Origin: Blastococcus sp. TF02A-26
GTDB lineage: Bacteria > Actinomycetota > Actinomycetes > Mycobacteriales > Geodermatophilaceae
Length of the DNA: 64,000 nucleotides
Direction: 5' to 3'
Assembly: GCF_003319125.1 (NCBI RefSeq)
Contig: NZ_QOHG01000005.1
Location: 1 to 64,000, forward strand
Part shown: positions 43,091 to 64,000 of the stretch, one piece after another
Layout: every line of letters begins with the position of its first letter
Position numbering within the stretch: the first letter of the stretch is position 1
The notes under the pieces: generated by a model
What the model was told of the DNA's origin: nothing
Database searches by the model: none
Seen by the model: only the letters and a program-made list of their open reading frames with translations
Program-made: the position numbers and the translations under genes

Positions 43091-44326
43091 TCAGCCGCGG
43101 GCGGCCGGGCGCTCCAGCAGCCAGGAGGCCGCCAGACCCGCGACCAGGCCCCAGAAGGCGGAGCCGATGTTGAGCACCGTGACGTCGGAGACGGTCACCA
43201 CGAAGGTGATGAGCGCACCGAACGTCCGGTCGCCCCCGAAGGCGGTGACGAACGAGGTCTGCAGCACCCGGAGCATCGCCAGCCCGCCGAGGACGGCGAC
43301 GAACGCGGCGGGCGTGCCGAGCATCAGCCCGGTGAACAACGGCGCGAACACCCCGAAGACGATCGCCAGCAGGCCGCACAGCACACCCGCGGTGTACTGC
43401 CGGGACCGCTCGCCGGAGGCGGAGAGCAGCGCGTTCGTCGGGCCGGTCAGGCAGGTGGAGACCGTGCCGACCGCGGCGGTCAGCACCGACCAGGCCCCGC
43501 AGGCGACGGTGACCGCGGTGACCGGTGGGTCGTGCCGGGCCGCTCGGAGGACGGCCACACCCTGCCCGTTCTGGACGACGAGCACGGTGATCGCCAGCGG
43601 CACGACGAGCTCGAGCATCGCCTGCAGCGACCAGGCGGGAGCGGTGAACACCGGCGCGGCGAGGACGCCGTCGGCCGTGCCGGGGTCGAACCGGCCCGAC
43701 ACCGCGACGGCCACCGCCCCGACGACCAGGGCGCCGAGCACCGGCGGCACCCGGGCGCCCAGGGCCGGCACCGCGCTCAGCGCCAGGAAGACGACGACCA
43801 TGGGGGCGGCCACCGCGACGTCGTCCTCCAGGGCGCGGACGAGGTCGACCCCGAAGCGCAGGAAGACCCCGGCGACCATCGCCATGACGATCGGCATGGG
43901 GACGACGGCCATGACGCGGCGCACCAGCCCGGTGAGGCCCAGCACCGCGATGAGCAGACCGGTCACCACGAAGGTGCCGACCACCTCGGGCCAGCTGAGG
44001 TGACCCAGCGCCGGCCCGACCAGCACCGTGCCGGGGATGGTCCAGAAGAAGGCGAGCGGCTGGCGGTACAGCCAGGAGGAGAGCACCGTCAGGACGCCGT
44101 TGAGGAAGAAGGCGCCGAACACCCAGCTGGCGATCTGCGCCTGGGTCAGCCCGCCCTGCTCCCCCACCGCGAGGATCACCGCGACCGGACCGGTGGCCGC
44201 GAAGACGAAGCCGACGAGCGCGTTGCCCGCGTAGAGCGGACCGGCGTCGCGCAGCACCCGGCCGGGGCCGGGCAGTGGGCGCGCCGGGCGCTCGATCAGC
44301 CGCTCGGCGGCACCGCTGTCGCGCAT
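43091..44326 (-). CDS. BenE-type benzoate/H+ symporter family protein
   Basis: 411 residues with about twelve helices. 'FVFAATGPVAVILAVGEQGGLTQAQIASWVFGAFF' and 'PLAFFWTIPGTVLVGPALGHLSWPEVVG' are the BenE family blocks, and 'CLTGPTNALL' lies in a conserved loop. The family imports benzoate or similar aromatic acids. It diverges from a MarR gene over 110 bases that contain a CTCAGTGCCAAG site. It forms the left edge of the catabolic island. Confidence 0.87.
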   Translation of the reverse strand: MRDSGAAERLIERPARPLPGPGRVLRDAGPLYAGNALVGFVFAATGPVAVILAVGEQGGLTQAQIASWVFGAFFLNGVLTVLSSWLYRQPLAFFWTIPGTVLVGPALGHLSWPEVVGTFVVTGLLIAVLGLTGLVRRVMAVVPMPIVMAMVAGVFLRFGVDLVRALEDDVAVAAPMVVVFLALSAVPALGARVPPVLGALVVGAVAVAVSGRFDPGTADGVLAAPVFTAPAWSLQAMLELVVPLAITVLVVQNGQGVAVLRAARHDPPVTAVTVACGAWSVLTAAVGTVSTCLTGPTNALLSASGERSRQYTAGVLCGLLAIVFGVFAPLFTGLMLGTPAAFVAVLGGLAMLRVLQTSFVTAFGGDRTFGALITFVVTVSDVTVLNIGSAFWGLVAGLAASWLLERPAARG

Positions 44327-44382
44327 GGCCTCCCCCGTCGATCCGGCACCATGAGGTCCGGATCACAGAACACGGAAAGATT

Positions 44383-44394
44383 CTCAGTGCCAAG
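44383..44394. promoter_or_regulatory. CTKAGCGCTMAG-like operator (BenE/MarR divergent region)
   Basis: CTCAGTGCCAAG differs by two bases from the site CTGAGCGCCAAG at 58355. It lies 57 bases before the benE start and 43 bases before the marR start, between the two divergent promoters. Confidence 0.5.
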
Positions 44395-44436
44395 ATGTTA
44401 CGGCGCACACACTGCCCGACCGGCACGAGGAGGACC

Positions 44437-45003
44437 ATGACCACGACCGACCCCGTCGGCGCCCGTCCCCGGGACGCCGTCGACGAGATCATCGGGCAGT
44501 GGGGCCGGGTCCGCCCGGACCTCGACGTCTCCGCGATGCAGGTGTTCGGCCGCCTGCACCGCAGCTTCCTGCTGTACCGGTCGGCCATAGGAGAGCGCTT
44601 CACCGACGTCGGGACGACCGAGCCCGGCTTCGACGTCCTCGCGGCGCTGCGCCGGTCGGGCGCCGAGCAGCGGCTCAGCGCCGGTGAGCTGGCCCGGCAG
44701 ACGCTGGTCACCACCGGCGGGCTGACGCTGCGGGTCAAGCGGCTGGAGAAGGACGGCCTGGTCCGGCGCGAGCGCGACCCGGAGGACCACCGGATGGTCT
44801 ACGTGTCGCTGACCGACGCCGGCCGCGAGCTGGTCGACCGGACCGCCGACCTGCACTTCCCCAACATGGCCCGGATGCTCGAGGGGCTCACCGCCGGCGA
44901 GCGCGACGACCTCGCGCGGCTGCTGGGGCGGCTGTTCGACTGCCTGCAGGAGGCCACCCCGGGCCTCGACCTCACCGAGGCCGCGGCCGCCGCCGAGCGC
45001 TGA
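44437..45003 (+). CDS. MarR-family regulator of the catabolic island
   Basis: 188 residues. 'QWGRVRPDLDVSAMQVFGRLHRSFLLYR' is the N-terminal dimer helix, and the winged helix 'LSAGELARQTLVTTGGLTLRVKRLEKDGLVRRERDPEDHRMVYVSLT' ends in the MarR wing. It resembles the incomplete MarR protein at 63687 in the N-terminal RPD-D-x8-FGR pattern. It likely represses benE and perhaps other island promoters. ATG 44437 follows GAGGAGG. Confidence 0.9.
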   Translation: MTTTDPVGARPRDAVDEIIGQWGRVRPDLDVSAMQVFGRLHRSFLLYRSAIGERFTDVGTTEPGFDVLAALRRSGAEQRLSAGELARQTLVTTGGLTLRVKRLEKDGLVRRERDPEDHRMVYVSLTDAGRELVDRTADLHFPNMARMLEGLTAGERDDLARLLGRLFDCLQEATPGLDLTEAAAAAER

Positions 45004-45011
45004 CCGCGGGC

Positions 45012-45042
45012 CCGCCACGATCAGGTCCCCTGATCGTGGCGG
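45012..45042. terminator. bidirectional terminator between marR and the island operon
   Basis: CCGCCACGATCAGG and CCTGATCGTGGCGG are perfectly complementary around a 3-base loop. The hairpin lies between two convergent stop codons. Confidence 0.85.
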
Positions 45043-45048: not shown

Positions 45049-45444
45049 TCAGGAGGACGACGACGCGCCCCTGATGCCCTGCGCCTCCACCTCGACCTTG
45101 AGGCCCGGGTCCACCAGCGCGGCCACGCCGACCAGCGTGGAGCAGGGGAAGTCCCCGCTGAAGACCTCGCCGCGGGCCCGGCCGACGGCGACCTTGTCCT
45201 CGACGTCGGTCAGGTAGACCCGCAGCACGAGGATGTCGTCGACCGACGCCCCGCAGGCCTCGGTCAGCTCGCGCACCCGCCGGAAGGTCTCCTTCGCCTG
45301 CAGGTAGACGTCGTCCCCACCGACGGGGCCGTCCGGGCCGCCGGCGTGCATGCCCGACAGGAAGAAGTGGTCGCCGTGCACCCGGGCGTTGCTGAACATG
45401 CCCGGCCGCGGCGGCTCCGGTACCGACTCCGCTGCGACCCTCAT
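45049..45444 (-). CDS. RidA-family protein lacking the catalytic arginine
   Basis: 131 residues of the YjgF/YER057c/UK114 fold ('HFFLSGMHAGGPDGPVGGDDVYLQAKETFRRV', 'VLRVYLTDVEDKVAV'). In canonical RidA an Arg in FPARS binds the carboxylate of the imine. The equivalent stretch here is FPCST, so the Arg is missing. It may bind a different ligand or act as a non-hydrolytic partner. It is the last gene of the island run and overlaps its neighbour by ATGA. Confidence 0.85.
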   Translation of the reverse strand: MRVAAESVPEPPRPGMFSNARVHGDHFFLSGMHAGGPDGPVGGDDVYLQAKETFRRVRELTEACGASVDDILVLRVYLTDVEDKVAVGRARGEVFSGDFPCSTLVGVAALVDPGLKVEVEAQGIRGASSSS

Positions 45445-45809
45445 GCCCGTCCCGTCCTCTCGTTGGCCTCGCGCACCAGCCGCTCCCGGGTCTCCCGGAA
45501 GTCGTAGGTGGGGTAGAAGTCGGTCTGGAAGACGCCCCACGCGCGGCGCTCCAGCTCGACGTTCACCGACTGCAGCAGCCGCGGCGGCAGCCGCAGCGTG
45601 ACGATCTGTCCCACGCCCATCGCCACCACCCACGAGACGACCTCGCAGCCGGCCGGCGGGAAGCCGTTCCACCAGTCGACGGCGTCCAGCTTGTCCCGCT
45701 GCTCGACGAGGTCCTGGGACTGGTCGTGCCGCAGGAAGACCGTCAGCAGCATGGTCTCCTCGGCGGCCGGGTGACCCGACCCGGCCGCCGAGGGCTGCGC
45801 GTCAGCCAT
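45441..45809 (-). CDS. hypothetical protein of the catabolic island
   Basis: 122 residues that I do not recognise. After a flexible N-terminus the core is 'MLLTVFLRHDQSQDLVEQRDKLDAVDWWNGFPPAG' followed by 'VVAMGVGQIVTLRLPPRLLQSVNVELERRAWGVFQTDFYPTYDF'. The beta-alpha-beta pattern and small size resemble dimeric ferredoxin-like (muconolactone-isomerase-like) proteins. This is only a fold guess. It overlaps the Rieske oxygenase gene by eight bases and RidA by four, so it is translated with both and may serve the same pathway. Confidence 0.65.
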   Translation of the reverse strand: MADAQPSAAGSGHPAAEETMLLTVFLRHDQSQDLVEQRDKLDAVDWWNGFPPAGCEVVSWVVAMGVGQIVTLRLPPRLLQSVNVELERRAWGVFQTDFYPTYDFRETRERLVREANERTGRA

Positions 45810-46899
45810 TCGCCGCGGCCACCAGCTTCGCGGCCTGGGCCTGTGCGTCGGCCCGGTACATGCGGCGGATGCGGGAGACGCCGAGGTCGTGCTGGTAGAG
45901 GTGCTCGTCGACGTCGGCGTCGGCGGCCAGGGCCTCGAGCACGATGCGGTCCTGCTCGAGCACCGCCCAGTGCTTGGCCTCCAGCTGGGTCCGGTACAGG
46001 AAGCGCCAGACCTCGCGCTCCCAGCCCTCCACCCGCCGGGTCCGCCAGTGGAAGATCGCCGAGTTGTGCTCGTCGATCGGCGTCGCCATGCCGACGATGC
46101 CGAAGGTGCCACCGGGCCCGGCGTTCTGGGCGTAGGGGATCTCCAGGTCGACGTAGTCCATCGCGCCCCGGGCGAACTCCACCCAGTCGAAGTTGACGCC
46201 GCGCTGGTCGGTCTTCTCGAAGAAGAAGCCGCGCTCGGTCTCGCGGATGCGGAACCGGGCCGAGGTGTCGCCGCCGAACATCGAGTGCGAGTCCCGGTGC
46301 AGGAAGGCCCCGTGCATCGGGTCGAGCACGTTGTCCATGTAGAACCGCCACGGCCCGGCCCACTCGGCGTAGTTCGGGAACCAGGAGACGGCGGGGTCGG
46401 CGAGCCGGTCGGGCAGCGCGAACTCGGTCGGCTGCGAGTCCTCGGTCAGCGGCACGAACGCGAAGATGGTGTCCGCGGCCTCGACGACCGACAGCGAGAC
46501 GGTGGCCTTCTTGCCCTCCAGGGCGCAGCCGGGCATGCCGGGCACCGAGACGACCGTGCCGGTGCCGTCGACCTGGACGCCGTGGTAGCGGCAGGCCACC
46601 CGGTCACCGAGGTGCTGGCCGACCGACAGCGGCGCGCTGCGGTGCGGGCAGCGGTCCTCGAGCATCGAGATGGCCCCGGACGCGTTGCGGAAGAGCAGCC
46701 AGTCGACGCCGAGGCGGGTGACCTTCTTCATCTCGCCGGCGCCGACCATGTGCGAGGGCAGGATCGGGTACCAGCGGTCGCGCAGACCGGTGGCCGCGAT
46801 CTCCTCCGCCGACAGGGTGCGGCGGGTGCCGACGACCTTGGGCGTCTTGACCGGGCGCGGACGGGCCAGGGCGGCGGGCGTGGTGGTCGGGGTGCTCAT
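45802..46899 (-). CDS. Rieske-type ring-hydroxylating oxygenase
   Basis: 365 residues. Rieske ligands are C84-x-H86 and C103-x2-H106. The mononuclear iron site is N190-x2-D193-x2-H196-x4-H201, and the bridging Asp193 motif is intact. A single polypeptide with a separate PDR/VanB-type reductase (52788) fits the one-component class IA oxygenases (VanA, phthalate oxygenase), which hydroxylate or O/N-demethylate aromatic acids. No beta subunit or separate ferredoxin is present. Confidence 0.92.
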   Translation of the reverse strand: MSTPTTTPAALARPRPVKTPKVVGTRRTLSAEEIAATGLRDRWYPILPSHMVGAGEMKKVTRLGVDWLLFRNASGAISMLEDRCPHRSAPLSVGQHLGDRVACRYHGVQVDGTGTVVSVPGMPGCALEGKKATVSLSVVEAADTIFAFVPLTEDSQPTEFALPDRLADPAVSWFPNYAEWAGPWRFYMDNVLDPMHGAFLHRDSHSMFGGDTSARFRIRETERGFFFEKTDQRGVNFDWVEFARGAMDYVDLEIPYAQNAGPGGTFGIVGMATPIDEHNSAIFHWRTRRVEGWEREVWRFLYRTQLEAKHWAVLEQDRIVLEALAADADVDEHLYQHDLGVSRIRRMYRADAQAQAAKLVAAANG

Positions 46900-46900: not shown

Positions 46901-47119
46901 TCAGTCTCCCAGTCGGCGGAGCTCGGCGCGGAGCGAGTCCGCGGTCCAGGGACCCCCGTCGGGGGCGTTGAGGCCGAGGCCGTTCAGGCCCTCGACCAGG
47001 CCGGGCAGGTCGTGCACGCCGCGCCCGAAGACCTCCATGATCGCGCCGGAGAGCTTGAGCTCGTAGGGGCTGATCGGGTGCGGGTGCGTCTGGTGCTCTT
47101 CCAGGTACTGCTCAGGCAT
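46901..47119 (-). CDS. small recombinase-like helix-turn-helix protein
   Basis: 72 residues. The C-terminal 'GLNAPDGGPWTADSLRAELRRLG' looks like the helix-turn-helix of serine recombinases, a domain that also occurs in small proteins beside Rieske oxygenase genes. No recombinase catalytic domain is present. It sits between the oxygenase (1-base gap) and the upstream hydrolase-like gene (eight-base overlap). It could assist the oxygenase or regulate; neither is shown. Confidence 0.7.
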   Translation of the reverse strand: MPEQYLEEHQTHPHPISPYELKLSGAIMEVFGRGVHDLPGLVEGLNGLGLNAPDGGPWTADSLRAELRRLGD

Positions 47120-47678
47120 GCGCTTCCTCCCTGGCCTGGGGCACGAGGGACGACAGCCCCTCGGCGATGGACATGAACGCGGTGACCCACTCGGCGAAGG
47201 AGCGGGGGTTGCTGCGGTGCACCGGGGCGGCGGTGCCGTCGACGATCACCATCACGCCGTTGGTCACGCCACCGGCGACGGTCTGGGCCTGCGAGGTGTC
47301 GGTGTCGGGCTCCGGCGCGGCGACGACCACGAGCGTCGGGGTCTGCACCTCCCGCAGGAGCTCCCAGTAGGCGGGGTCGGCCTCGTCGACCTCGGGGTCG
47401 GCGGCCAGGATGCTGACCACCAGCTCCGGGGCGCGGGCCGCCAGGAGCAGCGCCCGCGGCACCGCCGTCCCGGAGGCGAGGACGTGGACCGGGCCGCCGG
47501 CCGCGTGCACGGCGACGGCCTCGCGGACCTGGGCGAGCCACTCGGCGTCGGCCGGCTCGCCCTCGGGACCCCACTCGACCGCTCCGAGGGCGTGCACCTG
47601 GTCGAGGAACCAGTCGGCCGGCTCGCTGCCCGAGCGCAGGCAGAGGACGCCGGCGGACAGCTCGTCGTCGGGAACCAT
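47112..47678 (-). CDS. alpha/beta-hydrolase-like protein without a nucleophile elbow
   Basis: 188 residues. The order of strands and helices follows the alpha/beta-hydrolase fold ('PVHVLASGTAVPRALLLAARAPELV', 'TPTLVVVAAPEPDTD'). Where GxSxG should be, the sequence reads ASGTA, so the serine is displaced or lost. It also lacks the N-terminal HG oxyanion strand. It is thus either a degenerate binding protein or a different fold. TGATG overlap with the ThDP gene. Confidence 0.65.
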   Translation of the reverse strand: MVPDDELSAGVLCLRSGSEPADWFLDQVHALGAVEWGPEGEPADAEWLAQVREAVAVHAAGGPVHVLASGTAVPRALLLAARAPELVVSILAADPEVDEADPAYWELLREVQTPTLVVVAAPEPDTDTSQAQTVAGGVTNGVMVIVDGTAAPVHRSNPRSFAEWVTAFMSIAEGLSSLVPQAREEAHA

Positions 47679-49348
47679 CAGTGGCCTCCGTCCGGGGTGG
47701 GGATGTGCACGGGCGGCGTGAACGCGCCCGGCACCGGGTCGAGTGCGGTCACGTCGACCTCGACGAGCACCGGGCGGTGGGCGTCGACGGCCTCCCGCAG
47801 CACGGCCTCGAACCGCCCGGGGCCCTGCACCAGCCAGTACGGCATGGCGAGGGAGCCGGCGAGCTTGCCGAAGTCGGGGGTGAACAGGTCGACGCCGGTG
47901 ACGTCGAAGCCGTTGGCCTGCTGCATGTTGCGCAGGACGCCGTAGCCGCCGTCGTTGAACACGAGGACGACGACCCAGGCGCCGGTCCCGCAGAGGGAGG
48001 CCAGCTCGCCCAGGTGGACGGCGAGCCCGCCGTCGCCGGCCATGACGAGGGTCGGCACCTCCGGCCGGCCGACGGCGGCGCCGATGCCCATCGCCAGGCC
48101 CTGGCCGATGCCGCCGCCGAGCGGGAAGACGTTCGAGCTGCGCGCGTAGAACTCGAGCAGCCGGTTGCCCCACTGGCTGGACGGGATCGTGACGTCGCGG
48201 GCGACGACGGCCTTGCGCGGCAGCACCGAGCGCAGGCCGGCGCAGATCTCGGCGTAGCCCCCGATGTACTCGTAGAGGTCGTCGCGGACCTGCTGGCGCA
48301 CCGACCGCACGCGGTCGGCCCAGCCGGGCTCGGTCGAGACCGACGGCAGCCGCCCCAGCAGCGCCGTCAGCACCGCGCGGGAGTCCCCGACCAGTCCCAC
48401 CTCGGCGGGGTACACCCGGCCCACGGCGGCGGGGTCGACGTCGATCTGCACGTGCCGCTTGGGCAGCTCGAGGGCGTAGCTCTTCGTCTCGTTGGACCGG
48501 AAGTGCGTGCCGACGCTGAGGATCAGGTCGGCCTCGGCCAGCAGCGGGCCGACCGCGGGGGTGGCCGCGAAGTTGCCGACGACCAGGTCGTCGTCCTCGG
48601 GCACGATCGCCCGGCCCGAGTTGCTGGTGAGCACGCCGGCACCGAGGCGGTGCACCAGCTCGGTGAGCTCGGCGGGCGCGCCGGCCGCACCCCCACCCAC
48701 CCAGAGCAGCGGGCGCTGGGCGGCGGCGAGCAGGGTGGCCGCGGCGTCGAGGGCGTCGTCGTCGGGGTGCGGCACGGCCAGGGGCACCGGCTCGTACGGC
48801 TGCTGCTGGTCCGGCCGGGCGAGGTACTGCAGGTCCGAGGGCCACTCGACGCTGGCCGGGCCGTTCGGCGTGGCGGTGATCGCGGCGATGGCCTCCTCGA
48901 GGGTGGCCTCGGCGCGGTCGGCCGAGGGCACGGTCGCGGCGAACGCGGAGATCGCCTCGAGCATCTTCCGCTGGCCGGGGAACTCGTGGATGACGCCGCG
49001 GGCCGAGCCGGGGGCGGCCGGGTCGTAGTGCTCGCTGTCGATCTGCCCGGTGACGTGCAGGACGCGGCTGCCGGCGGTGAGCGCCTCGATCATCGAGCCG
49101 GCCGCGTTGCCCGCGCCGGTGCCGGTGCTGGTCAGCGCCACGCCGACCTTGCCGGTGGCCCGGGCGTACCCGTCGGCGGCGTTGACGACCGCGGCCTCGT
49201 GCCGCATCTCCACGAAGCGCAACTCGCGGGCCACGGCCTCGACCAGCGGCAGGTTGTGCACGCTGATCACGCCGAAGGCGGTGTCGATGCCGTGCCGCTT
49301 CATCACGGCGACGAGGACGTCACCGCCGGTGGGCTGTCGTTCGGTCAT
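47678..49348 (-). CDS. thiamine-diphosphate enzyme (acetolactate synthase/benzoylformate decarboxylase-like)
   Basis: 556 residues with the three ThDP-enzyme domains. The activating Glu is E51 in 'RFVEMRHEAAVVNAADGYARATG'. The middle domain has 'ADLILSVGTHFRSNET', and the ThDP/Mg motif is 'MAGDGGLAVHLGELASL...VVVLVFNDGG'. No FAD-binding insertion typical of true acetolactate synthases is obvious. It probably decarboxylates a 2-keto acid or cleaves a C-C bond in the catabolic pathway. The substrate is unknown. Confidence 0.87.
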   Translation of the reverse strand: MTERQPTGGDVLVAVMKRHGIDTAFGVISVHNLPLVEAVARELRFVEMRHEAAVVNAADGYARATGKVGVALTSTGTGAGNAAGSMIEALTAGSRVLHVTGQIDSEHYDPAAPGSARGVIHEFPGQRKMLEAISAFAATVPSADRAEATLEEAIAAITATPNGPASVEWPSDLQYLARPDQQQPYEPVPLAVPHPDDDALDAAATLLAAAQRPLLWVGGGAAGAPAELTELVHRLGAGVLTSNSGRAIVPEDDDLVVGNFAATPAVGPLLAEADLILSVGTHFRSNETKSYALELPKRHVQIDVDPAAVGRVYPAEVGLVGDSRAVLTALLGRLPSVSTEPGWADRVRSVRQQVRDDLYEYIGGYAEICAGLRSVLPRKAVVARDVTIPSSQWGNRLLEFYARSSNVFPLGGGIGQGLAMGIGAAVGRPEVPTLVMAGDGGLAVHLGELASLCGTGAWVVVLVFNDGGYGVLRNMQQANGFDVTGVDLFTPDFGKLAGSLAMPYWLVQGPGRFEAVLREAVDAHRPVLVEVDVTALDPVPGAFTPPVHIPTPDGGH

Positions 49349-49360: not shown

Positions 49361-50143
49361 TCAGAGGTAACGGGAGACGCCGCCACCGACGTCGATGGTC
49401 GCGCCGGTGCAGTACGAGGACAGGGGGGACAGCAGGCTGACGATCGGGAAGGCGACCTCCTCGGCGCGGCCGAACCGGCCGAGGGCGATGCCGCGGTCGG
49501 CGGCGATCTCCGCGCTCCACTCCTCGTAGCTCTGCGAGGTACCGGAGGCGTCGTAGCGGCGCCGCCACTGGCCGGTGTCGACGAGGCCGAGGGCGACGGA
49601 GTTGACCCGGATGCCCTCGGGTCCGAGCTCCGCCGACAGCGTGCGGGTGAGGTTGAGCAGCGCCGCGCGGGCCGCGGAGGTGATCGCCAGCCGGGCCTCG
49701 GGCTGCTTGGCCAGGATCGCGTTGACGTTGACCACCGAGGCGGCGTCGGACCCGGCGAGGTGCGGCCGGGCGGCGCGGATGACGTTCCACGCGCCGAACA
49801 CCTTGAGGTCGAGCTCCTCGCGGATCTGCTCGTCGGTGGTGTCGGTGATGGGCGCCATGAGCGAGCGGCCGGCGTTGCACACCACGCCGTCCACCCCACC
49901 GAACACCTCGACGCCCTCGGCGACCATCGCCTCGACCGAGACGCGGTCGACGACGTCGCAGGCGACCGCGTGCACCTTCCCCGGGCCGGGCAGCGCGCCG
50001 ACGGCGGACTGCAGGCGCTCGAGGTCCCGGGCGGAGGCGACGACCGAGGCGCCCTCGCCGACGAGCATGCGGGTGGTGGCCAGCCCGACGCCGGAGCTCG
50101 CCCCGGTGACGAGCACGACGCGGCCGTTCAGCTGCAGGTCCAT
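49361..50143 (-). CDS. SDR-family protein with altered catalytic residues
   Basis: 260 residues. The cofactor motif TGASSGVG (14-21) is intact and the C-terminal 'IRVNSVALGLVDTGQWRRRY' is SDR-like. The catalytic Tyr-x3-Lys is not found: the aligned stretch is TSAARAALLNLTR, giving Thr and Arg. The usual catalytic Ser region is 'VVNVNAILA'. It may still bind NAD(P) but use other chemistry. It lies between the ThDP enzyme and a canonical SDR. Confidence 0.82.
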   Translation of the reverse strand: MDLQLNGRVVLVTGASSGVGLATTRMLVGEGASVVASARDLERLQSAVGALPGPGKVHAVACDVVDRVSVEAMVAEGVEVFGGVDGVVCNAGRSLMAPITDTTDEQIREELDLKVFGAWNVIRAARPHLAGSDAASVVNVNAILAKQPEARLAITSAARAALLNLTRTLSAELGPEGIRVNSVALGLVDTGQWRRRYDASGTSQSYEEWSAEIAADRGIALGRFGRAEEVAFPIVSLLSPLSSYCTGATIDVGGGVSRYL

Positions 50144-56315: not shown

Positions 56316-56354
56316 GGTGTCTCCCTCGGTGGTGCTCCTCTGAGTGCTCATCTT

Positions 56355-56366: not shown

Positions 56367-56447
56367 AGATATGCAGCGAATGTAGGAGTGGGCCCGCCCA
56401 CGGTCAAGGGGCGGGGTGGGACTCGCACGGTGTTCCGTTCGGTTCGG

Positions 56448-56467: not shown

Positions 56468-57325
56468 TCACGCGATGAGCGGAGGGCGCGCGGTCAGCCC
56501 GCTCAGCGTGCGGAGGATCGAGTACGGCACCACCGCGCTGGTGCGCGGGTTGTCCGGGCTCGGCTTGTTCTGCACCTGGAACACGTAGGAGCCCTGCGGC
56601 CCCTCGGCCTCGATGCGGTGGGTGGTCAGGTCGGCCGCGGGATCGGCGTGCAGCTCCACCCGGACGACGTCGGGGTCCCCGACGGCCAGCGCCAGGGCGG
56701 CCGCGACGTTCAGCGACTGCGGGAAGAGCCGGGAGGCCTCCGCGGGGGTGCCGGCGAAGACGAGCACGTCCTCGGCGGCATCGCGGACCCGCCGAGCCTC
56801 CGCCTCGTCCATCCACGGCTGGACCAGGGCGGCCGGCTTCTTGGTGGTGCGCAGGACCGCGCGGTCCAGCCCGCCGACGGCGGCCGCCGAGGCGAGCAGG
56901 TCCAGCCCACCGAGCGCGCCGTGCGTGCAGCGCAGCCGGCCGGGGCCGAGCTCGTCCAGCCGCCCGGCCAGGCGGGGGTCGAGCAGGGCCGCGATCGAGC
57001 TCACCACCAGGTCGCGGCCGGCTGCCAGGACCGGCTCCACGACCTCGAGCAGCGCGTCGGGCCCGGCGCACTCGACGACGACGTCGCAGGCCGCGAGGGC
57101 CTCGTCGAGGCCGAGCCGCGGGACCGGGAGCCCCGGGTCGTCGGGCGAGCGGGTGACGACGCCGACCAGCGTCGCGCCGTCCACCCCTCCCCTCAGCAGC
57201 TCCCGGGCGACCACCCGGCCGATGGCGCCGTGACCCAGCAGGGCCACGCGGAGCCCCGTCCCCGCGGCACGGACCGCGGCGGTCCGTCCCGTGGGGCCGG
57301 GGACGCCATCGACTCGGGTGGTCAT
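56468..57325 (-). CDS. L-aspartate dehydrogenase-like protein
   Basis: 285 residues. 'VALLGHGAIGRVVARELLRGG' (28-48) is the Rossmann motif. 'CTHGALGGLDLLASAA' and 'TTHRIEAEGPQGSYVFQVQN' (catalytic His region) are hallmarks of the aspartate dehydrogenase family. In NAD synthesis this enzyme makes iminoaspartate, but here it lies in a catabolic run without nad genes. It may instead deaminate or reductively aminate a pathway intermediate. Seven bases separate it from the SBP gene. Confidence 0.85.
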   Translation of the reverse strand: MTTRVDGVPGPTGRTAAVRAAGTGLRVALLGHGAIGRVVARELLRGGVDGATLVGVVTRSPDDPGLPVPRLGLDEALAACDVVVECAGPDALLEVVEPVLAAGRDLVVSSIAALLDPRLAGRLDELGPGRLRCTHGALGGLDLLASAAAVGGLDRAVLRTTKKPAALVQPWMDEAEARRVRDAAEDVLVFAGTPAEASRLFPQSLNVAAALALAVGDPDVVRVELHADPAADLTTHRIEAEGPQGSYVFQVQNKPSPDNPRTSAVVPYSILRTLSGLTARPPLIA

Positions 57326-57332: not shown

Positions 57333-58331
57333 TCAGCCCTCGGCGACGTAGGTGTCGTCGGCGGCCTCGTAACCGTCCTCGAGCAGCCCCTGCTCGACCA
57401 GGATGTCGGCGACCTCCTGGATGCGGTCGACGTCGGTCTCGGCCAGGAACTCGGGCAGCGCGATCTCCTGCGCGACCTCCGGCGACACCTGAGCGATGGT
57501 CGGCAGCCACTCGCGCCACTCGGCCTCGTTGGCGACGATGTCCTGCCCGGCCGCGTACATCGCCCGGGCGAACGCCGCGACGGTGTTCGGGTTGGACTCG
57601 ATGAACTGGTCGCTGGCGATGAAGTTGGAGACCGCCAGGCCGTCGTTCGGGCCCTCCTCCGAGGTCAGGTCGACGATCTCGCGCATGCCCGCGGCCAGCG
57701 CCGCCGAGGAGAACGGCTCCGGGGAGTAGCCGACGTCGATGGATCCGGCCTCGACACCCGACAGCATCTCGGGGAAGGGCACCTCGACGAAGGTCGGCTC
57801 GACGTCGTCCAGGCCCTCCTCGTTCAGCAGGTTGCGCAGGGTGACGTCACCGATGTTGTTGGTGGCGTTGATCCCGATCGTGGCGCCGTCGAGGTCCTCG
57901 AGGGTCTGGATGTCGGAGTCGGGGTCGACGTAGACCGACAGGCCGCCGGCGCCCAGGGCGCTGGTGAGGACGACGGTCTGGATCGGCAGCCCGCTCTGCG
58001 CGGCGATCGACGTCGAGATGGTGTTGGAGAAGCTCATGTCGAGCTCGCCGGTGGCCACGTTCTGCGCGGCCTGCGGGCCGCCCTGGACCGGCTCGAGGGT
58101 GACCGTGAGGCCCTCCTCCTCGAAGAAGCCCTTCTCCTGCGCCCAGTACAGCGCGGAGTAGTCGGCCAGCGGCAGCGCGCCGACGGTGACCTCGGTGGTC
58201 TCGAGCTCGCCGTCGCTGGAACCGCCGCCGCCGCCCCCGGAGCTGTTGCCGCTGTCGTCGTCCGAGCCGCACGCGGCCAGACCCAGCAGCGCGAACGCGG
58301 TCGCTCCCGCGACCACACCACGGAACCTCAT
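57333..58331 (-). CDS. NitT/TauT-type ABC substrate-binding lipoprotein (NMT1/SsuA-like)
   Basis: 332 residues. Lipobox LAAC near residue 21 is followed by a Gly/Ser linker. 'VTVGALPLADYSALYWAQEKGFFEEEGLTVTLEPVQGG' is the typical NMT1/THI5-like opening. The family binds sulfonates, nitrate, pyrimidine precursors and aromatic acids. It supplies the adjacent ATPase and two permeases. An operator-like site is 24 bases upstream, so it may be expressed separately from the permeases. Confidence 0.9.
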   Translation of the reverse strand: MRFRGVVAGATAFALLGLAACGSDDDSGNSSGGGGGGSSDGELETTEVTVGALPLADYSALYWAQEKGFFEEEGLTVTLEPVQGGPQAAQNVATGELDMSFSNTISTSIAAQSGLPIQTVVLTSALGAGGLSVYVDPDSDIQTLEDLDGATIGINATNNIGDVTLRNLLNEEGLDDVEPTFVEVPFPEMLSGVEAGSIDVGYSPEPFSSAALAAGMREIVDLTSEEGPNDGLAVSNFIASDQFIESNPNTVAAFARAMYAAGQDIVANEAEWREWLPTIAQVSPEVAQEIALPEFLAETDVDRIQEVADILVEQGLLEDGYEAADDTYVAEG

Positions 58332-58425: not shown

Positions 58426-59238
58426 TCAGACGGGAGCCACCTGCTCCTTGCTGCGGAGGAGGCGGGTCACGTGACCGCGGATCTCGACGAACCGCGGGTC
58501 GGTCTTGGTCGCGATGTGGTCGCGCGGCCGCGGCAGGTCGACCTCGATGACCTCGGCGACGACGCTGGGCGGCGCGGACAGCACGATGATCCGGTCGGCG
58601 AGGTAGACGCTCTCGTCGATGTCGTGGGTGACCACGAGCACCGTGATGCCGAGCTCGGCCTGGATCCGCATGAGCAGGTCCTCGAGGTCGGCGCGGGTCT
58701 GCGCGTCGACCGAGGCGTACGGCTCGTCCATCAGCAGCAGCTTCGGGTGGCTGGCCAGCGCGCGGGCGATCGCCACGCGCTGCTGCATGCCGCCGGACAT
58801 CTGCCAGGGGTAGAGCTTCTCCTTGCCGGAGAGCCCGACCTCCTCGATGGCGAAGCGCACGCGCTCGGCGCGCTCCTTCGCCGGCAGGTGCTTGATCGGG
58901 AAGGCCACGTTCTTGTCCACCCGCATCCAGGGGAACAGCGAGCGCGAGTAGTCCTGGAAGACCATCGCCAGGCCCTCGGGGACGCCGTTCACCGGGGTGC
59001 CCTCGAACTCGACGCGGCCGGCAGTCGGCTCGTCGAGACCGGAGATGATCCGCAGGAGCGTCGACTTGCCACAGCCGGACGGGCCGACGATGACGCTGAT
59101 CTTGGAGGCCGGGACCTCGGCGCTGATGCTGCGGACGGCGAGGTTGTCGCCGTAGCTGCGGGAGACGCCGTCGAGCAGGAGCTCGGCGCTGGTGGCGGCG
59201 CGGGGCGCCGGGTTCTCGGTCACTCGGGCCTCAGTCAT
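58426..59238 (-). CDS. NitT/TauT-type ABC transporter ATPase
   Basis: 270 residues from ATG 59238. Walker A GPSGCGKST, Q-loop 'MVFQDYSRSLFPWM', signature MSGGMQQRV, Walker B LLLMDEPYASVD and switch His THDIDE. The sequence is of the SsuB/TauB class. It overlaps the upstream permease gene by eight bases. It powers import of the ligand bound by the lipoprotein at 57333. Confidence 0.93.
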   Translation of the reverse strand: MTEARVTENPAPRAATSAELLLDGVSRSYGDNLAVRSISAEVPASKISVIVGPSGCGKSTLLRIISGLDEPTAGRVEFEGTPVNGVPEGLAMVFQDYSRSLFPWMRVDKNVAFPIKHLPAKERAERVRFAIEEVGLSGKEKLYPWQMSGGMQQRVAIARALASHPKLLLMDEPYASVDAQTRADLEDLLMRIQAELGITVLVVTHDIDESVYLADRIIVLSAPPSVVAEVIEVDLPRPRDHIATKTDPRFVEIRGHVTRLLRSKEQVAPV

Positions 59239-60145
59239 TCTGCTGGGTCGCTCCTCGGTGCCAGGCGAGCGCACGGCGCTCGATCGCCAGGAAGATGAAG
59301 TTGAAGGCCACGCCGAGGAGCACCAGGACGATCAGCACCGACCAGAAGCCGGCGTAGTCGAAGGTCCGCTGGGACTGGATCAGCAGGTAGCCCAGGCCGT
59401 TCTCGGACTTCTGGAGCTCCGAGATGATCATGAGGATCAGGGAGAAGGACAGCGACGTCCGGATGCCCGCGAAGATCTTCGGTGCCGCACCGGGCAGCAC
59501 GATGTGCAGCAGCTGGTCGCGGGCCGGGATCCGGAACACCTGGGCGGCCTGCGCCCGGGTCTGCCCGATCGAGCTGACCCCGTCGATGGTGTTGAGCAGG
59601 ATCGGCCAGACGACGCTGAACGCGATCAGGAAGACCTTCGGCGAGTCACCGGTGCCGAAGAGGAAGAAGAAGACGCCGAGCAGCGCCGGGCTGGGCAGCG
59701 ACCGGCCCAGGTGGATCAGCGGCTGGAACAGCGCGGTGAGCACCGGCGAGATGCCGAGCAGGACGCCGATCACCACGCCGACGACGATCGCGATGCCGAG
59801 ACCGGCGAGGGCCCGCCCGACGCTCGGGAAGAGGTGGTCGTAGGTCGCGTCACCGAGGAAGAGCCGCGACGCGTCGCCGGAGAGGAAGTCCTCGACGAAC
59901 CGCTCGAGGGAGGTGAGCGGGTCCTTGACGAACAGGCCCGACCGCCGGCCCTCCGAGATCAGGTACCAGACGCCGATGATCGCGGCGGGGACCAGGAGGC
60001 GGAGCAGCACCGTCACCGGCCAGGGGAAGCCGGCGCGGGCCCGGCGGCGCGGCGGCGCGGGGACGGCGGCGCGCTCCTCGACGGCCTCGGACTCCGGGGC
60101 GCTCAGCGGCACGTGGATCGGGTCGGTGCCCTGCTGGACCGTCAC
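59231..60145 (-). CDS. NitT/TauT-type ABC transporter permease
   Basis: 304 residues. A 50-residue cytoplasmic N-terminus is followed by six helices. 'QAAQVFRIPARDQLLHIVLPGAAPKIFAGIRTSLSFSL' is the EAA-like coupling loop of SsuC/TauC proteins. It is a distinct paralogue of the permease at 60219, so the transporter probably uses a heterodimeric pore. Confidence 0.92.
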   Translation of the reverse strand: MTVQQGTDPIHVPLSAPESEAVEERAAVPAPPRRRARAGFPWPVTVLLRLLVPAAIIGVWYLISEGRRSGLFVKDPLTSLERFVEDFLSGDASRLFLGDATYDHLFPSVGRALAGLGIAIVVGVVIGVLLGISPVLTALFQPLIHLGRSLPSPALLGVFFFLFGTGDSPKVFLIAFSVVWPILLNTIDGVSSIGQTRAQAAQVFRIPARDQLLHIVLPGAAPKIFAGIRTSLSFSLILMIISELQKSENGLGYLLIQSQRTFDYAGFWSVLIVLVLLGVAFNFIFLAIERRALAWHRGATQQND

Positions 60146-60218: not shown

Positions 60219-61010
60219 TCACTGTGCGAGCCCCTTCTTCCAGCCGAACACCACGTCGTCGAGCTTCGCCATGACGAGGTTCACGGCGACGCCGAGCACG
60301 CCGGCCACCAGGGTCGCGGCGTAGACGATGTCGAGGTTGGTGGCGTTGGCGGTGTTCTCGAGGATGTAGCCGCCGATGCCCGTGCCGTTGCCGATGAGCA
60401 GCTCGGCGCTGACCGCGACCAGCAGGCCGATCGAGGCGGCGATCCGGACGCCGGTGAAGGCGAACGGCAGGGCGCTGGGGATCTTCACCGTGCGCAGGAC
60501 CGCCAGGTCGCTGTTGCCGAAGGTCTTCGCCGTCATCACCGCGGTGGTGTCCGTGCTGCGGACGCCGTACATGGTGTTGAGCAGGATCGGCCAGACGCAG
60601 GAGAGCGCGACGGTGAGCGCCAGGGGCAGCATCCCCTGGCCGATGAGCAGGACGAGGATCGGTCCGACGGCCACCGACGGCAGCACCCGGAAGGCCTCGA
60701 CCGGCCACTCGAACGCGACGAAGACGCTGCGGAACGCGCCCATGAGGCCGCCGACCAGGACGCCGACGCCGGTGGCGATCGCCAGGCCGAGCATCCACTC
60801 GCCGAGGGTGAACAGGACGGCGTCCCAGAAGGTGCCGTCGGGTAGCAGGTCCGCGACGCCGCCGAGGACGCCGGTCGGGAGCGGGAGTCCCGCGACGTCG
60901 AGGAGGCCGGTGCGGATCACGGCCTCCCAGACCGCTGCGACACCGACGACGCCGACCACGCCGAGGACGGCCTGCGACCGACCGCTGAGCGGTTCGTGCA
61001 GGAGCTTCAC
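60219..61010 (-). CDS. NitT/TauT-type ABC transporter permease, second subunit
   Basis: 263 residues from GTG 61010, which has GAGGAGGGAG upstream. Six helices; the coupling loop is 'MTAKTFGNSDLAVLRTVKIPSALPFAFTGVRIAASIGL'. It is the first gene of the importer operon. Two regulatory dyads lie upstream (61066-61081 and 61112-61123). Confidence 0.92.
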   Translation of the reverse strand: MKLLHEPLSGRSQAVLGVVGVVGVAAVWEAVIRTGLLDVAGLPLPTGVLGGVADLLPDGTFWDAVLFTLGEWMLGLAIATGVGVLVGGLMGAFRSVFVAFEWPVEAFRVLPSVAVGPILVLLIGQGMLPLALTVALSCVWPILLNTMYGVRSTDTTAVMTAKTFGNSDLAVLRTVKIPSALPFAFTGVRIAASIGLLVAVSAELLIGNGTGIGGYILENTANATNLDIVYAATLVAGVLGVAVNLVMAKLDDVVFGWKKGLAQ

Positions 61011-61190: not shown

Positions 61191-62414
61191 TCACCGGGTG
61201 ACATCTTCCCCGTGTCCGACCACCCCGGGCCGAGCGGTCCGGCCGGCGAGTCCCCACACGCCCGCGACGACCACCGCGAGCGCCAGGGCCAGGAGCGGAG
61301 CGGCGGGCACTCCCCCGGCCATCAGCCCGCCACCGACCAGTGCCGGCGGCAGCCAGACCACCACCGGGATCAGCCGCGGCGGCCGTCCCCGGCGCCGGCG
61401 GGCCGACTCGACCCAGAAGGGCACCGCGATCGGCGGGGCGATCCCGGCGAGCAGCGACAGCCAGTCGACCAGGATCCGGTGGAAGGCGAGGAGTCCGAGC
61501 ACCAGACCCAGCCCGGTGATGACCGCGACCGCCACCCGCGCCGGGGCGCCGGTGAACGTCTGCAGCGCCAGCCCGCCGGAGTAGGCCGCGGCGATCGCGG
61601 GGGCGAGGACGGCGACCGCGACCAGCAGGTCGCCGACCGGCACCCCGCCGGGCCGCATGGCGGCGACCGCGGCGAGGCTGGCGTCCCCGCCGTCGGTCCC
61701 GGACAGCCGCAGGGCCACGCCGATCAGCACGAGCCCCAGGGCGGGCAGGACGAGCGCGGCCACGCAGGCGAGCAGTCCGCCCCGGTGCTCGAGGCCGGCC
61801 GTGAAGTCCGGCGAGCGGAGCATGAAGACGGCGACGTAGCCGACGAACGCGGCCAGCAGGACGACGGCCTCCCCGCCGGGACCCGCCGCGACGGTCACCG
61901 GCGACCGCAGCCGGTCGACGCCCAGCAGCAGGAGGGGCGAGGCCACGAGCGTGAGCACCGTGGTGGCGACGGCGACGCGGTTCCAGGAGCGGACGTCGCT
62001 GAGGGCGAGCGCGCCGACGACGGCGCCCACGGCCGCGGCGCACAGTGGTCGGGGCAGGTCGAGGACCCGGGCGAGCGACTCCCCGCCGATCCCGATGCCG
62101 AAGCCGACCCAGCCGACCATCCCGGCCGCGATCAGCACGCCGACCGCCGTCCGCGCGGCGGGCGAGAGGTAGCCGCGGCTCAGCTGCGTGAACGTCTGTC
62201 CGGTGCCGATCGGCGGGCGCAGGCCCAGCCGGCCGTGCAGGACCAGCAGCACCGCCATCAGCGCGACGGCGGGCAGCAGCCAGACCAGCGGGAGGGGTCC
62301 GCCCCCGTCGGCCAGCTGGGTGCCCAGCACCAGCGCGCCCGGCGAGCTGCCGATGGCCAGCCAGCCCCCGACGTGGCGGGTCCACCGGACCGGCGCGGCG
62401 ACGTCACTGACCAC
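61191..62414 (-). CDS. NCS1/cytosine-permease-like transporter
   Basis: 407 residues with about twelve helices. 'TRHVGGWLAIGSSPGALVLGTQLADGG' and 'AAGMVGWVGFGIGIGGESLARVLDLP' resemble nucleobase:cation symporter-1 proteins, but identity to known members cannot be judged. In this context it may carry an N-heteroaromatic acid. It follows the monooxygenase gene and has an operator-like dyad nine bases before its start. Confidence 0.7.
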   Translation of the reverse strand: MVSDVAAPVRWTRHVGGWLAIGSSPGALVLGTQLADGGGPLPLVWLLPAVALMAVLLVLHGRLGLRPPIGTGQTFTQLSRGYLSPAARTAVGVLIAAGMVGWVGFGIGIGGESLARVLDLPRPLCAAAVGAVVGALALSDVRSWNRVAVATTVLTLVASPLLLLGVDRLRSPVTVAAGPGGEAVVLLAAFVGYVAVFMLRSPDFTAGLEHRGGLLACVAALVLPALGLVLIGVALRLSGTDGGDASLAAVAAMRPGGVPVGDLLVAVAVLAPAIAAAYSGGLALQTFTGAPARVAVAVITGLGLVLGLLAFHRILVDWLSLLAGIAPPIAVPFWVESARRRRGRPPRLIPVVVWLPPALVGGGLMAGGVPAAPLLALALAVVVAGVWGLAGRTARPGVVGHGEDVTR

Positions 62415-62422
62415 CGGGACAA

Positions 62423-62434: not shown

Positions 62435-62470
62435 GGACTTTGCGGCAAGACACCCCGCGGGCCCCGCATC

Positions 62471-63601
62471 TCAGGTGAGCGGCACGGTCCAGGCGTCGTA
62501 TCCGTACACCCAGTCGGCGTTGCCGGCGGTGCGCAGCCAGTCGTTGCCGCGGGAGCCGATCTGCACGTCGGCGGTCCGGCCGCGGCGGGCCTGCTCGTAG
62601 GCCTGCAGTGCCGCGGTGTCGCGCCCGGGCTCGGCGGCGGCCAGCGCGCGGGCGAGGACGACGGCGTCCTCGATAGCCATCCCGGCCCCCTGCGCCATGA
62701 ACGGCATCATCGGGTGACACGCGTCGCCCAGGAGGGTGCGCGTGCCGACCGACCAGCGCGGCAGCGGGTCGCGCACGTAGAGGGCGGACTTCAGCACCGA
62801 GTCGCAGGCGTCGAGCAGTGCGCGCGCCTCGGCGTGGAAGCCGGCGTAGGCGCGGCGCAGCTCGTCGACGTCGCCCGGCGCGGTCCACGACTCCTCGCGC
62901 CACGACTCCTGAGGGCGGGTGGCGAAGACGAAGACGTCCTCGCCGCGGTTCAGGGGGAAGGTGACGATCTGCGTCGCAGCGTCCGGGCCCCACCACTTGG
63001 TGAAGGCGCCGAGGTTGGGGATCCCCTCCAGCCGCGCGGCGGGGACGACGGCGCGGTAGGCGACGACCCCGGTGAACTCGGGCTGCTCGGGGCCGAACAG
63101 CGCCTCGCGGACGACGGAGTGGATGCCGTCGGCGCCGACCAGCACGTCGACGGTCGCCGAACCGCCGTCGGTGAACTCGAGGACGGTCCGGTCGCCGTCC
63201 TCGCGGAGGGCCGACAGCGTGCGCCCCAGGTGCAGCACGCCGTCGGGCAGTGCCGGCACGAGCGCGTCGAGCAGGTCCGCGCGGTGGATCGTCAGCTGCG
63301 GCGAGCCGTAGCGCTCCTCGGCGACGGTCCCCATCTCCAGGCGCGAGGTCTCCTCGCCGGTGTCCCAGGTGCGGCTGATCCGGTGGCTGGGACGGGCCGC
63401 GGTCCGGCGCAGCGCCTCACCCACCCCGAGCCCGTCGAGCGCGACGACCGCGTTGGGCGTCAGGTTGATGTCCGCACCCACCCGGCCGAGGCGGCCGGCC
63501 TGCTCGAAGACGACGACCTCGCGACCCAGCTGACGCAGCGCGAGCGCTGCCACCACTCCTCCGACGCCGCCACCGACGACCCCGACCACCTGCTCGCCCA
63601 T
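62471..63601 (-). CDS. FAD-dependent aromatic monooxygenase (NicC/salicylate hydroxylase-like)
   Basis: 376 residues. The FAD motif is VGVVGGGVGG (6-15), the DG motif is VGADGIHSVVRE, and the second FAD motif is LLGDACHPMMPFMAQGAGMAIEDA. The C-terminal 'WLRTAGNADWVYGYDAW' recalls 6-hydroxynicotinate 3-monooxygenase more than plain salicylate hydroxylases. It would hydroxylate an aromatic acid, often with decarboxylation. ATG 63601 with GGGGAG upstream; a TTG at 63616 is less likely. It diverges from a MarR gene. Confidence 0.88.
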   Translation of the reverse strand: MGEQVVGVVGGGVGGVVAALALRQLGREVVVFEQAGRLGRVGADINLTPNAVVALDGLGVGEALRRTAARPSHRISRTWDTGEETSRLEMGTVAEERYGSPQLTIHRADLLDALVPALPDGVLHLGRTLSALREDGDRTVLEFTDGGSATVDVLVGADGIHSVVREALFGPEQPEFTGVVAYRAVVPAARLEGIPNLGAFTKWWGPDAATQIVTFPLNRGEDVFVFATRPQESWREESWTAPGDVDELRRAYAGFHAEARALLDACDSVLKSALYVRDPLPRWSVGTRTLLGDACHPMMPFMAQGAGMAIEDAVVLARALAAAEPGRDTAALQAYEQARRGRTADVQIGSRGNDWLRTAGNADWVYGYDAWTVPLT

Positions 63602-63621
63602 GACGACTCCCCTCAAGATGT

Positions 63622-63648
63622 GTAAGTACCTATATTCTCAGCACTTAC
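63622..63648. promoter_or_regulatory. MarR-type operator in the monooxygenase/MarR divergent region
   Basis: GTAAGT (63622-63627) and ACTTAC (63643-63648) form an inverted repeat across an AT-rich spacer with TATATT. A weak island motif (CTCAGCACTTAC, 63637-63648) overlaps its right half. It is midway between the two divergent starts. Confidence 0.5.
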
Positions 63649-63686
63649 GTATCATCGGCGCAACACCCCTGGCCCGAGGAGGCGGC

Positions 63687-64000
63687 GTGGCAGTCGAGGG
63701 AGCCCGGCCCGACGAGGTGGACGCCGTCCTCGACCGCTGGGTGCAGGTCCGCCCCGACGTCGACCCGGCCAGCATCGGCGTCTTCGGGCGGATCGCCCGG
63801 CTGGACCTGATGCGGCGGGCCGCCGTCCGCAGACTGCACGAGCGGCACGGCATCACCTCGGCGGCGTTCGACCTGCTCTCCCAGCTGCGCCGGGCCGGTC
63901 CGCCGCACCGGCGGACGACCGGGGAGCTCGCCGAGGCCACCCTGCTCACCTCGGCGGCGACGACGCTGCGCATCGACCGGCTGGAGACCGACGGTCTGGT
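63687..64000 (+). CDS. MarR-family regulator (truncated by the window end)
   Basis: The first 104 residues of a MarR protein. 'VLDRWVQVRPDVDPASIGVFGRIARLDLMRRAAV' forms the N-terminal helices, and the winged helix begins at 'TTGELAEATLLTSAATTLRIDRLETDGLV'. It is a clear paralogue of the MarR protein at 44437. GTG 63687 follows GAGGAGG. It most likely represses the divergent monooxygenase gene and itself. The C-terminus lies beyond the window. Confidence 0.88.
   Translation, partial: MAVEGARPDEVDAVLDRWVQVRPDVDPASIGVFGRIARLDLMRRAAVRRLHERHGITSAAFDLLSQLRRAGPPHRRTTGELAEATLLTSAATTLRIDRLETDGL

Follow-up and report, generated by a model that had tools for sequence, protein, structure and literature searches.

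The window analyzed here is a stretch of 64,000 nucleotides from Blastococcus sp. TF02A-26 (contig NZ_QOHG01000005.1, positions 1 to 64,000; the source genome comprises 4,676,529 bases in 53 contigs), and it contains a compact catabolic gene cluster of 21 minus-strand genes at 45049-63601, identified from open reading frames (ORFs) called by codon-position GC content and with chosen start codons. Using these starts, 7 of the 20 adjacent gene pairs overlap, and no gap exceeds 180 bp. In order of transcription, the first half of the cluster encodes a flavin adenine dinucleotide (FAD) monooxygenase, a probable transporter, two ABC permeases, an ATPase, a substrate-binding protein, an aspartate dehydrogenase-type protein (AspDH), an aldehyde dehydrogenase (ALDH), the RidA-type deaminase RidA2 and a cupin protein. 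These are followed by a reductase, a vicinal oxygen chelate (VOC) extradiol dioxygenase, the alpha/beta hydrolase abh1, two short-chain dehydrogenases/reductases (SDR2, then SDR1), a thiamine diphosphate (ThDP)-dependent enzyme, the hydrolase-like abh2, an HTH_62 protein, a Rieske oxygenase, the orphan protein hyp1 and RidA1. Plus-strand MarR genes are located at both ends of the cluster, with a BenE gene beyond the first of them, making 22 minus-strand genes if BenE is counted. An earlier note on this DNA described a catabolic island of about 20 genes, nearly all on one strand, and every gene that it named is present where it was placed; the genes for abh2, the HTH_62 protein and hyp1 were missing from it. 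Of the three transport systems proposed there, BenE and the ABC system are confirmed by Pfam, and the third is called a transporter by eye. The proteins were assigned to families using Pfam and NCBIfam profile searches (Table 1).

Table 1. Genes and features of the cluster and its flanks, with positions in the 64,000-nucleotide window; roles given as proposed are predictions.
Feature	Position	Strand	Remarks
BenE-family aromatic acid transporter	43091..44326	-	PF03594 2.6e-71; operator-like motif upstream at 44382; also adjoins the cluster in L011 and L014
MarR-family regulator 1 (MarR1)	44437..45003	+	orthologues beside or near many loci
RidA-type enamine/imine deaminase 1 (RidA1)	45049..45444	-	PF01042 1.1e-16
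hyp1, conserved orphan protein, predicted alpha+beta fold	45441..45809	-	no Pfam/NCBIfam match
Rieske oxygenase, proposed kynurenate 7,8-dioxygenase	45802..46899	-	PF00355, PF19112 (Rieske + VanA_C)
HTH_62 small protein adjoining the Rieske gene	46901..47119	-	PF20552 2.9e-28
abh2, degenerate alpha/beta-hydrolase-like protein	47112..47678	-	weak matches: PcaDC 0.00016, Abhydrolase_4 0.14
ThDP-dependent enzyme (three-domain), proposed 2-oxo acid decarboxylase	47678..49348	-	NF005470 665 bits, cut-off 495
SDR1, atypical active site, proposed side-chain reductase	49361..50143	-	NF005468 327 bits, cut-off 266
SDR2, canonical, proposed 7,8-dihydrodiol dehydrogenase	50155..50898	-	catalytic residues kept
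abh1, alpha/beta hydrolase, proposed pyridine-ring opening or C-C cleavage	50895..51686	-	PF00561 1.2e-29
VOC extradiol dioxygenase (two-domain), proposed 7,8-dihydroxykynurenate 8,8a-dioxygenase	51688..52701	-	HpaD/C23O-like, below cut-offs
PDR-type flavin/[2Fe-2S] reductase of the Rieske oxygenase	52788..53759	-	PF00111, PF00175
Cupin protein	53800..54345	-	PF07883 6e-14
RidA-type enamine/imine deaminase 2 (RidA2)	54382..54753	-	PF01042 2.8e-24
ALDH, proposed formylethyl-picolinate oxidation	54750..56315	-	PF00171 7.5e-164
Operator-like near-perfect inverted repeat upstream of ALDH	56339..56367		11-base arms, one mismatch, 9-base spacer; motif matches at 56339 and 56367
AspDH-type dehydrogenase, proposed iminosuccinate reduction	56468..57325	-	PF01958 1.8e-28
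NMT1/SsuA-like ABC substrate-binding protein	57333..58331	-	PF09084 3.8e-29
ABC transporter ATPase	58426..59274	-	PF00005 5.5e-33
ABC transporter permease	59231..60145	-	PF00528 3.1e-21
ABC transporter permease	60219..61010	-	PF00528 5.9e-18
Hydrophobic protein, probable membrane transporter	61191..62414	-	no Pfam/NCBIfam match
NicC-like FAD monooxygenase, proposed xanthurenate 7-hydroxylase	62471..63601	-	PF01494 4.1e-25
MarR-family regulator 2 (MarR2)	63600..64202, past window end at 64000	+	operator-like motif at 63636

When GTDB genome contigs were scanned for matches to the window Rieske protein, 76 loci were identified; the window proteins were then placed in these by tblastn, and the best Rieske-protein matches are in Blastococcus and Geodermatophilus. 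We class as full a locus where Rieske, VOC and ThDP genes are present together, and 64 of the 76 loci are full; those left out lie on short contigs or match at contig ends (L021, L038, L042, L061, L080 and L081), have a best identity of 28-40% (L082-L086), or, in a single case from Defluviicoccus (L078), have no VOC gene seen in the stretch examined. SDR1, SDR2 and abh1 are present in all 64 full loci, the cupin and ALDH in 63 each, the reductase in 62 and the HTH_62 protein in 60. Less constant members are abh2 (44), AspDH (42), RidA2 (41), hyp1 (38) and RidA1 (36), and the monooxygenase is located within the examined stretch in 16 of the 64. Since the set is conserved across 64 loci, a grouping of these genes by chance is excluded.

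The set is also present in plasmid records of Nitratireductor, Acinetobacter baumannii, Klebsiella pneumoniae and Novosphingobium, and in a Caballeronia record, where it extends as far as the record does. In Klebsiella and Acinetobacter, the PDR-type reductase is replaced by a ferredoxin and a ferredoxin reductase; the type of transporter differs among loci (ABC, MFS or TRAP). No near match to the Klebsiella cluster was found in the Escherichia coli genomes searched. In a separate draw of 398 Pseudomonadota genomes, we used the ThDP family NF005470 as a marker of the cluster and found 15 genomes with a protein above its cut-off. Each of these 15 contains more cluster genes near the ThDP gene (in G023, on a contig of 4.4 kb), and Rieske and SDR2 are both present in 13; in G019, Rieske was seen, but VOC, SDR2 and ALDH were not seen nearby. 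Several alphaproteobacteria (L102, L107, L109, L110, L111 and L087) encode a double-cupin protein of about 320 amino acids near the Rieske gene, replacing the 181-amino-acid cupin.

Rieske, SDR2 and VOC are encoded together in every full locus, and we examined their active sites in homologue alignments that include the window protein, the rows of which provide all the residue counts given here. The Rieske-cluster ligands are kept in 88 of 91 rows and the iron site (D193/H196/H201) in 89 of 91, the catalytic S140/Y153/K157 of SDR2 are intact in 78 of 80, and the VOC metal ligands H153/H208/E259 are kept in 84, 83 and 83 of 84 rows, respectively. The presence of these usual ligands agrees with the attribution of ring cleavage to the VOC enzyme in the earlier note. 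For the FAD monooxygenase, called NicC-like there, the best solved structure is indeed that of the 6-hydroxynicotinate 3-monooxygenase NicC, with full-length similarity at 277.6 bits, and salicylate hydroxylases are also among its relatives.

This monooxygenase is distributed differently from the other cluster genes. Its orthologues make up a group of their own, with 59-88% identity, and other matches in the same genomes reach at most 45%. Orthologues at E 1e-110 or better (59-70% identity) were found in 9 of the 398 Pseudomonadota genomes, a search that scored no more than the top four candidates in most genomes, and all 9 belong to the 15 genomes with the ThDP marker (probability by chance 8e-15, ignoring kinship between genomes); in G341 and G215 the monooxygenase gene is on a different contig from the cluster. 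Among 34 cluster genomes, the window's own included, 23 contain an orthologue and 11 contain none. Since orthologues were found only in cluster genomes in this search, and since 11 of the 34 cluster genomes contain none, this enzyme is probably an accessory entry or an accessory step, one that apparently depends on the cluster, which in turn appears able to function without it. The alphaproteobacterial version of the cluster in G227 contains two extra FAD monooxygenases (L104:4500-6461 and L109:7000-8163), one of them phenol-hydroxylase-like (PF01494 + PF07976), which are possibly further substrate entries, and this cluster is also adjoined by a sulfatase-like ORF.

SDR1 contains Thr155 and Arg159 in place of Tyr and Lys (each in 85 of 88 rows), and thus lacks the catalytic Ser-Tyr-Lys of classical SDRs that SDR2 retains. 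Because SDR1 conservedly lacks these canonical residues, its sequence is fitting for a job other than alcohol oxidation. Its closest solved structure is Q9HYA2, which shares a TSAAR stretch in the alignment; this is presumably a protein of Pseudomonas aeruginosa PAO1, and the paper on it reportedly describes an atypical catalytic centre. The ThDP enzyme and SDR1 score above the thresholds of PRK07064 and PRK07062, NCBI families named without a substrate, and the next named relatives of the ThDP enzyme include 5-guanidino-2-oxopentanoate decarboxylase. The earlier note pointed to a similar set in P. aeruginosa, around PA3504-PA3507; the match to Q9HYA2 and the two families passed are partly in keeping with this, and our search of the literature found nothing on PA3504-PA3507 itself. 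Open-licence PMC papers likewise held nothing to the point on Q9HYA2 or on AspDH gene clusters. Judged by enzyme class only, a predicted 2-oxo acid decarboxylase (ThDP) is present in 64 of 64 loci and an aldehyde dehydrogenase (ALDH) in 63 of 64.

The hydrolase abh1 keeps its S95, D213 and H241 in 87, 87 and 86 of 87 rows; in abh2 the nucleophile is lost, as read by eye, and abh2 is possibly a partner of abh1. The cupin retains H96/H98/E102 in 83 of 84 rows and Arg144 in 80 of 84. The AspDH-type protein exceeds the cut-off of PF01958, with N206/D228/H236 present in 65 of 66 rows, and its N206 and H236 align to identical residues in TM1643. Across the 64 full loci, 18 encode AspDH only, 20 RidA only, 24 both and 2 neither, a complementarity with a Fisher p of 0.009, uncorrected for kinship. 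The finding that 62 of 64 loci encode at least one of the two would be explained if both act on one imine, iminosuccinate.

As predicted from its enzyme families, this inventory calls for a fused N-heteroaromatic acid as the substrate. We propose, with confidence that is evenly balanced, that the cluster degrades kynurenate (4-hydroxyquinoline-2-carboxylate) and also its 8-hydroxy derivative, xanthurenate, the latter entering via the accessory NicC-like enzyme. The earlier suggestion of an N-heteroaromatic acid is thereby partly supported, by the relation to NicC and by the enzyme set, and a substrate that the note left undefined is narrowed to two specific candidates, which we still infer.

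In this proposal, both acids would be taken up by BenE, the ABC system and the third transporter. The Rieske oxygenase and its reductase, whose classes are established, would convert kynurenate to the 7,8-dihydrodiol, which SDR2 would oxidize to 7,8-dihydroxykynurenate, and the FAD monooxygenase would form the same compound directly from xanthurenate. The VOC enzyme would then cut the 8,8a bond, giving a 4,6-dihydroxypicolinate that bears a 3-carboxy-3-oxopropenyl side chain. The atypical SDR1 may, speculatively, reduce the double bond of this side chain, after which the ThDP enzyme would decarboxylate the 2-oxo acid, and ALDH would oxidize the resulting aldehyde to the carboxyethyl acid. Opening of the pyridone ring and cutting of the carbon chain might involve abh1 and the cupin, perhaps with abh2 and hyp1, which is speculative chemistry; by a scheme of our own, ring opening of the 4,6-dihydroxypicolinate and cleavage between C4 and C5 would yield iminosuccinate and probably glutarate. 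Iminosuccinate is the product of aspartate dehydrogenase, and it could be hydrolyzed by RidA to oxaloacetate and ammonia or reduced by the AspDH-type protein to aspartate.

The classical kynurenate route consists of dioxygenation, diol dehydrogenation, extradiol cleavage, reduction, 2-oxo acid decarboxylation and aldehyde oxidation, with EC 1.14.99.2, 1.3.1.18 and 1.13.11.10 as the enzyme entries concerned. By enzyme class, the cluster contains one candidate gene for each step, in the same order of reaction types as the quinoline pathway of the 1960s (Hayaishi/Taniuchi and Dagley). The genes that would act after the VOC enzyme do not form a meta-pathway tail, since no tautomerase, hydratase or aldolase family is present among the cluster proteins, and ThDP, ALDH and a non-classical SDR suit the needs of the classical kynurenate pathway after ring cleavage. 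According to passages of PMC5770815 and PMC11354673, it has been known from 1961 onward that bacteria degrade kynurenic acid. The reference list of PMC5770815 includes a 1961 title (Hayaishi et al.) on breakdown of kynurenic acid to glutamate, alanine and acetate, and a 1963 title (Dagley and Johnson) that treats the oxidation of kynurenic and xanthurenic acids jointly. The three products named in the 1961 title agree with the proposed iminosuccinate and glutarate. In open-licence PMC papers, we found no genes assigned to the breakdown of kynurenate or xanthurenate; such an assignment may exist in subscription papers, which this search did not cover. As none was found, there is no reference protein for comparison with this pathway. 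Slightly on the doubtful side of even, we suggest that the cluster could be the first set of genes known for the kynurenate pathway of the 1960s, with a NicC-like entry for xanthurenate, a side-chain reductase of the SDR family with a rebuilt active site, and an AspDH that retains the ring nitrogen as aspartate where it would otherwise be lost as ammonia.

The same logic could apply to another fused N-heteroaromatic acid, i.e., quinaldate/8-hydroxyquinaldate or a different quinoline or isoquinoline carboxylate, and the evidence from Rieske, SDR2, VOC, the NicC-like enzyme and RidA/AspDH fits these acids equally. Several Rieske relatives of solved structure act on fused N-rings (carbazole, 2-oxoquinoline), at only 40-48 bits. 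We nevertheless consider such a substrate unlikely, as quinaldate-type acids are, from general knowledge, scarcer in soil than kynurenate, and no additional ring hydroxylase to install the 4-hydroxy group was found across the set.

A monocyclic aromatic acid is a rather more improbable substrate. In this case the Rieske route and NicC-like hydroxylation of a hydroxy analogue would converge on a catechol that is cleaved by the meta route, as for benzoate and salicylate, and the topology of a meta pathway (Rieske and SDR or FAD monooxygenase, then VOC and hydrolase), the BenE-type import and the salicylate hydroxylases among the relatives of the monooxygenase are all consistent with it. However, the cluster proteins gave no match to a hydratase, aldolase or tautomerase family, a small-subunit partner for the Rieske protein is missing from the cluster, and ThDP, the atypical SDR1 and AspDH/RidA are left without a role.

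An aminomuconate-type route, suggested in the earlier note from ALDH and RidA, would have an aminophenol-like intermediate cleaved and then acted on by ALDH and a RidA deaminase. The cluster resembles the 2-aminophenol (amn) meta pathway in its ALDH, RidA-family deaminase and extradiol dioxygenase, and the ALDH and RidA2 genes overlap by 4 bp, but we regard this route as highly improbable. None of the cluster proteins matches a 4-oxalocrotonate decarboxylase, tautomerase, hydratase or aldolase family, i.e., the lower meta genes and the decarboxylase/hydratase/aldolase tail of amn were not found; Rieske, ThDP, the atypical SDR and the AspDH-type protein belong to the set yet are foreign to the route; and the RidA proteins are among the less constant members, with none listed in the annotated Klebsiella and Acinetobacter sets. 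Just as improbable is a substrate with a side-chain amine, e.g., beta-phenylalanine, where ring dioxygenation, meta cleavage and a hydrolase would free aspartate: it accounts for the hydrolase and AspDH together, but gives no role to the NicC-like enzyme, ThDP, the cupin or RidA, and would need a lower pathway for 2-hydroxypentadienoate, which the cluster does not contain.

The set also differs from the nicotinate (nic) pathway. The window monooxygenase is similar to NicC over its full length but belongs to a separate orthologue group, and the window Rieske, VOC, ThDP and AspDH proteins are not nic members; NicX dioxygenase and the deformylase, amidase and isomerase steps were not suggested by general Pfam matches, no dedicated search for them having been made. 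The earlier view that the combination is not a standard textbook pathway is supported.

Several observations weigh against kynurenate and xanthurenate as the substrates. No characterized close homologue names the substrate, and the Rieske and VOC relatives of known function among solved structures are distant. The AspDH-type protein of the window is under every NCBIfam AspDH cut-off (best 152.0 bits, cut-off 184); the Klebsiella orthologue passes (401.5 bits, cut-off 177). No cluster protein is a confident match for the step that opens the pyridine ring. No tryptophan (Trp) 2,3-dioxygenase gene is located within the cluster in the 34 genomes searched with PF03301, and no gene for kynurenine itself was seen among the cluster genes. 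According to a passage in PMC4938989, a P. aeruginosa kynU mutant accumulates kynurenic acid, and this species, to which the earlier note ascribed part of the set, secretes it.

We also rejected co-occurrence with Trp 2,3-dioxygenase as support. This enzyme is encoded in 12 of 20 and 10 of 15 cluster genomes and, among the 398 Pseudomonadota, in 10 of 15 genomes with the ThDP marker versus 94 of 383 others (p 0.0009). The homogentisate dioxygenase HgmA, our control unrelated to kynurenine, gave 12 of 15 versus 96 of 383 (p 2e-5), which counts against the proposal as well; because HgmA is enriched to the same or a greater degree, the Trp dioxygenase enrichment probably reflects lifestyle or genome size. 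The apparent adjacency of Trp dioxygenase and cluster in G227 was also discarded, the two being about 9 kb apart with unrelated genes between them; the ORF next to this Trp dioxygenase resembles kynureninase, by eye.

A class of clusters containing the monooxygenase only (L088, G257, G227 and G358) was likewise abandoned, as Rieske and SDR2 are located just beyond the first cut in G227, G257 and G358. Only the plasmid record of Vibrio nigripulchritudo contains the set without a Rieske match (the search covered this plasmid alone), and the monooxygenase there is in pieces, a further point against our proposal. This unannotated copy (L088, about 17265-19000) is split into two or three reading frames and may be a pseudogene.

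Inspection of the promoter regions is suggestive of shared control. We wrote an operator-like motif, TCTSAGYRCYWA, from three sites, upstream of BenE/MarR1, ALDH and the monooxygenase/MarR2, and exact matches in the 64-kb window are these three source sites only, which is partly so by construction. Allowing one mismatch adds two sites, at 56339 and at 58354 (upstream of the substrate-binding protein), both in cluster promoters, with no match elsewhere in the 64 kb; shuffled sequences gave a mean of 1.35 matches and never 5 in 100 shuffles. The ALDH-side motif is kept in L011-L014, and the MarR1-side motif in L011, L012 and L014. From this common motif we infer that BenE, the ABC transporter, the monooxygenase and the main operon may form one regulon, and the two MarR proteins probably control the set through it. 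ARAGORN called a tRNA-Gln at 43670-43767, within the benE ORF and on the same strand, which is probably a false positive.

Two small proteins accompany the set. The HTH_62 protein (PF20552, "recombinase-like helix-turn-helix") is encoded beside the Rieske gene, and the Klebsiella, Caballeronia, Novosphingobium and Nitratireductor records also have it annotated; rather than being a recombinase, it may assist the oxygenase as an accessory protein. The protein hyp1 is 61-87% identical to the window copy across 19 homologues, with a 63% identical copy in Caballeronia. Its predicted fold is ferredoxin-like (model pLDDT 83.8), and the model has no PDB match at E 0.001 or better, the nearest structures being weak matches.

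Kynurenic and xanthurenic acids are end products of tryptophan metabolism in animals, with neuroactive and immune effects. If our proposal is correct, the cluster would provide sequences for three activities that have none, i.e., kynurenate 7,8-dioxygenase, its dihydrodiol dehydrogenase and 7,8-dihydroxykynurenate dioxygenase, and a function for widespread genes annotated as "thiamine pyrophosphate-binding protein" and "SDR family oxidoreductase" in actinobacteria, Burkholderia-type bacteria, Klebsiella and Acinetobacter. Microbial loss of both acids would then be readable from genomes, and host-associated bacteria with the set, as in the Klebsiella and Acinetobacter records, would be able to use up tryptophan metabolites that serve in host signalling. 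Even if the substrate is wrong, these genes define a conserved, unassigned catabolic pathway, the parts of which can be tested.

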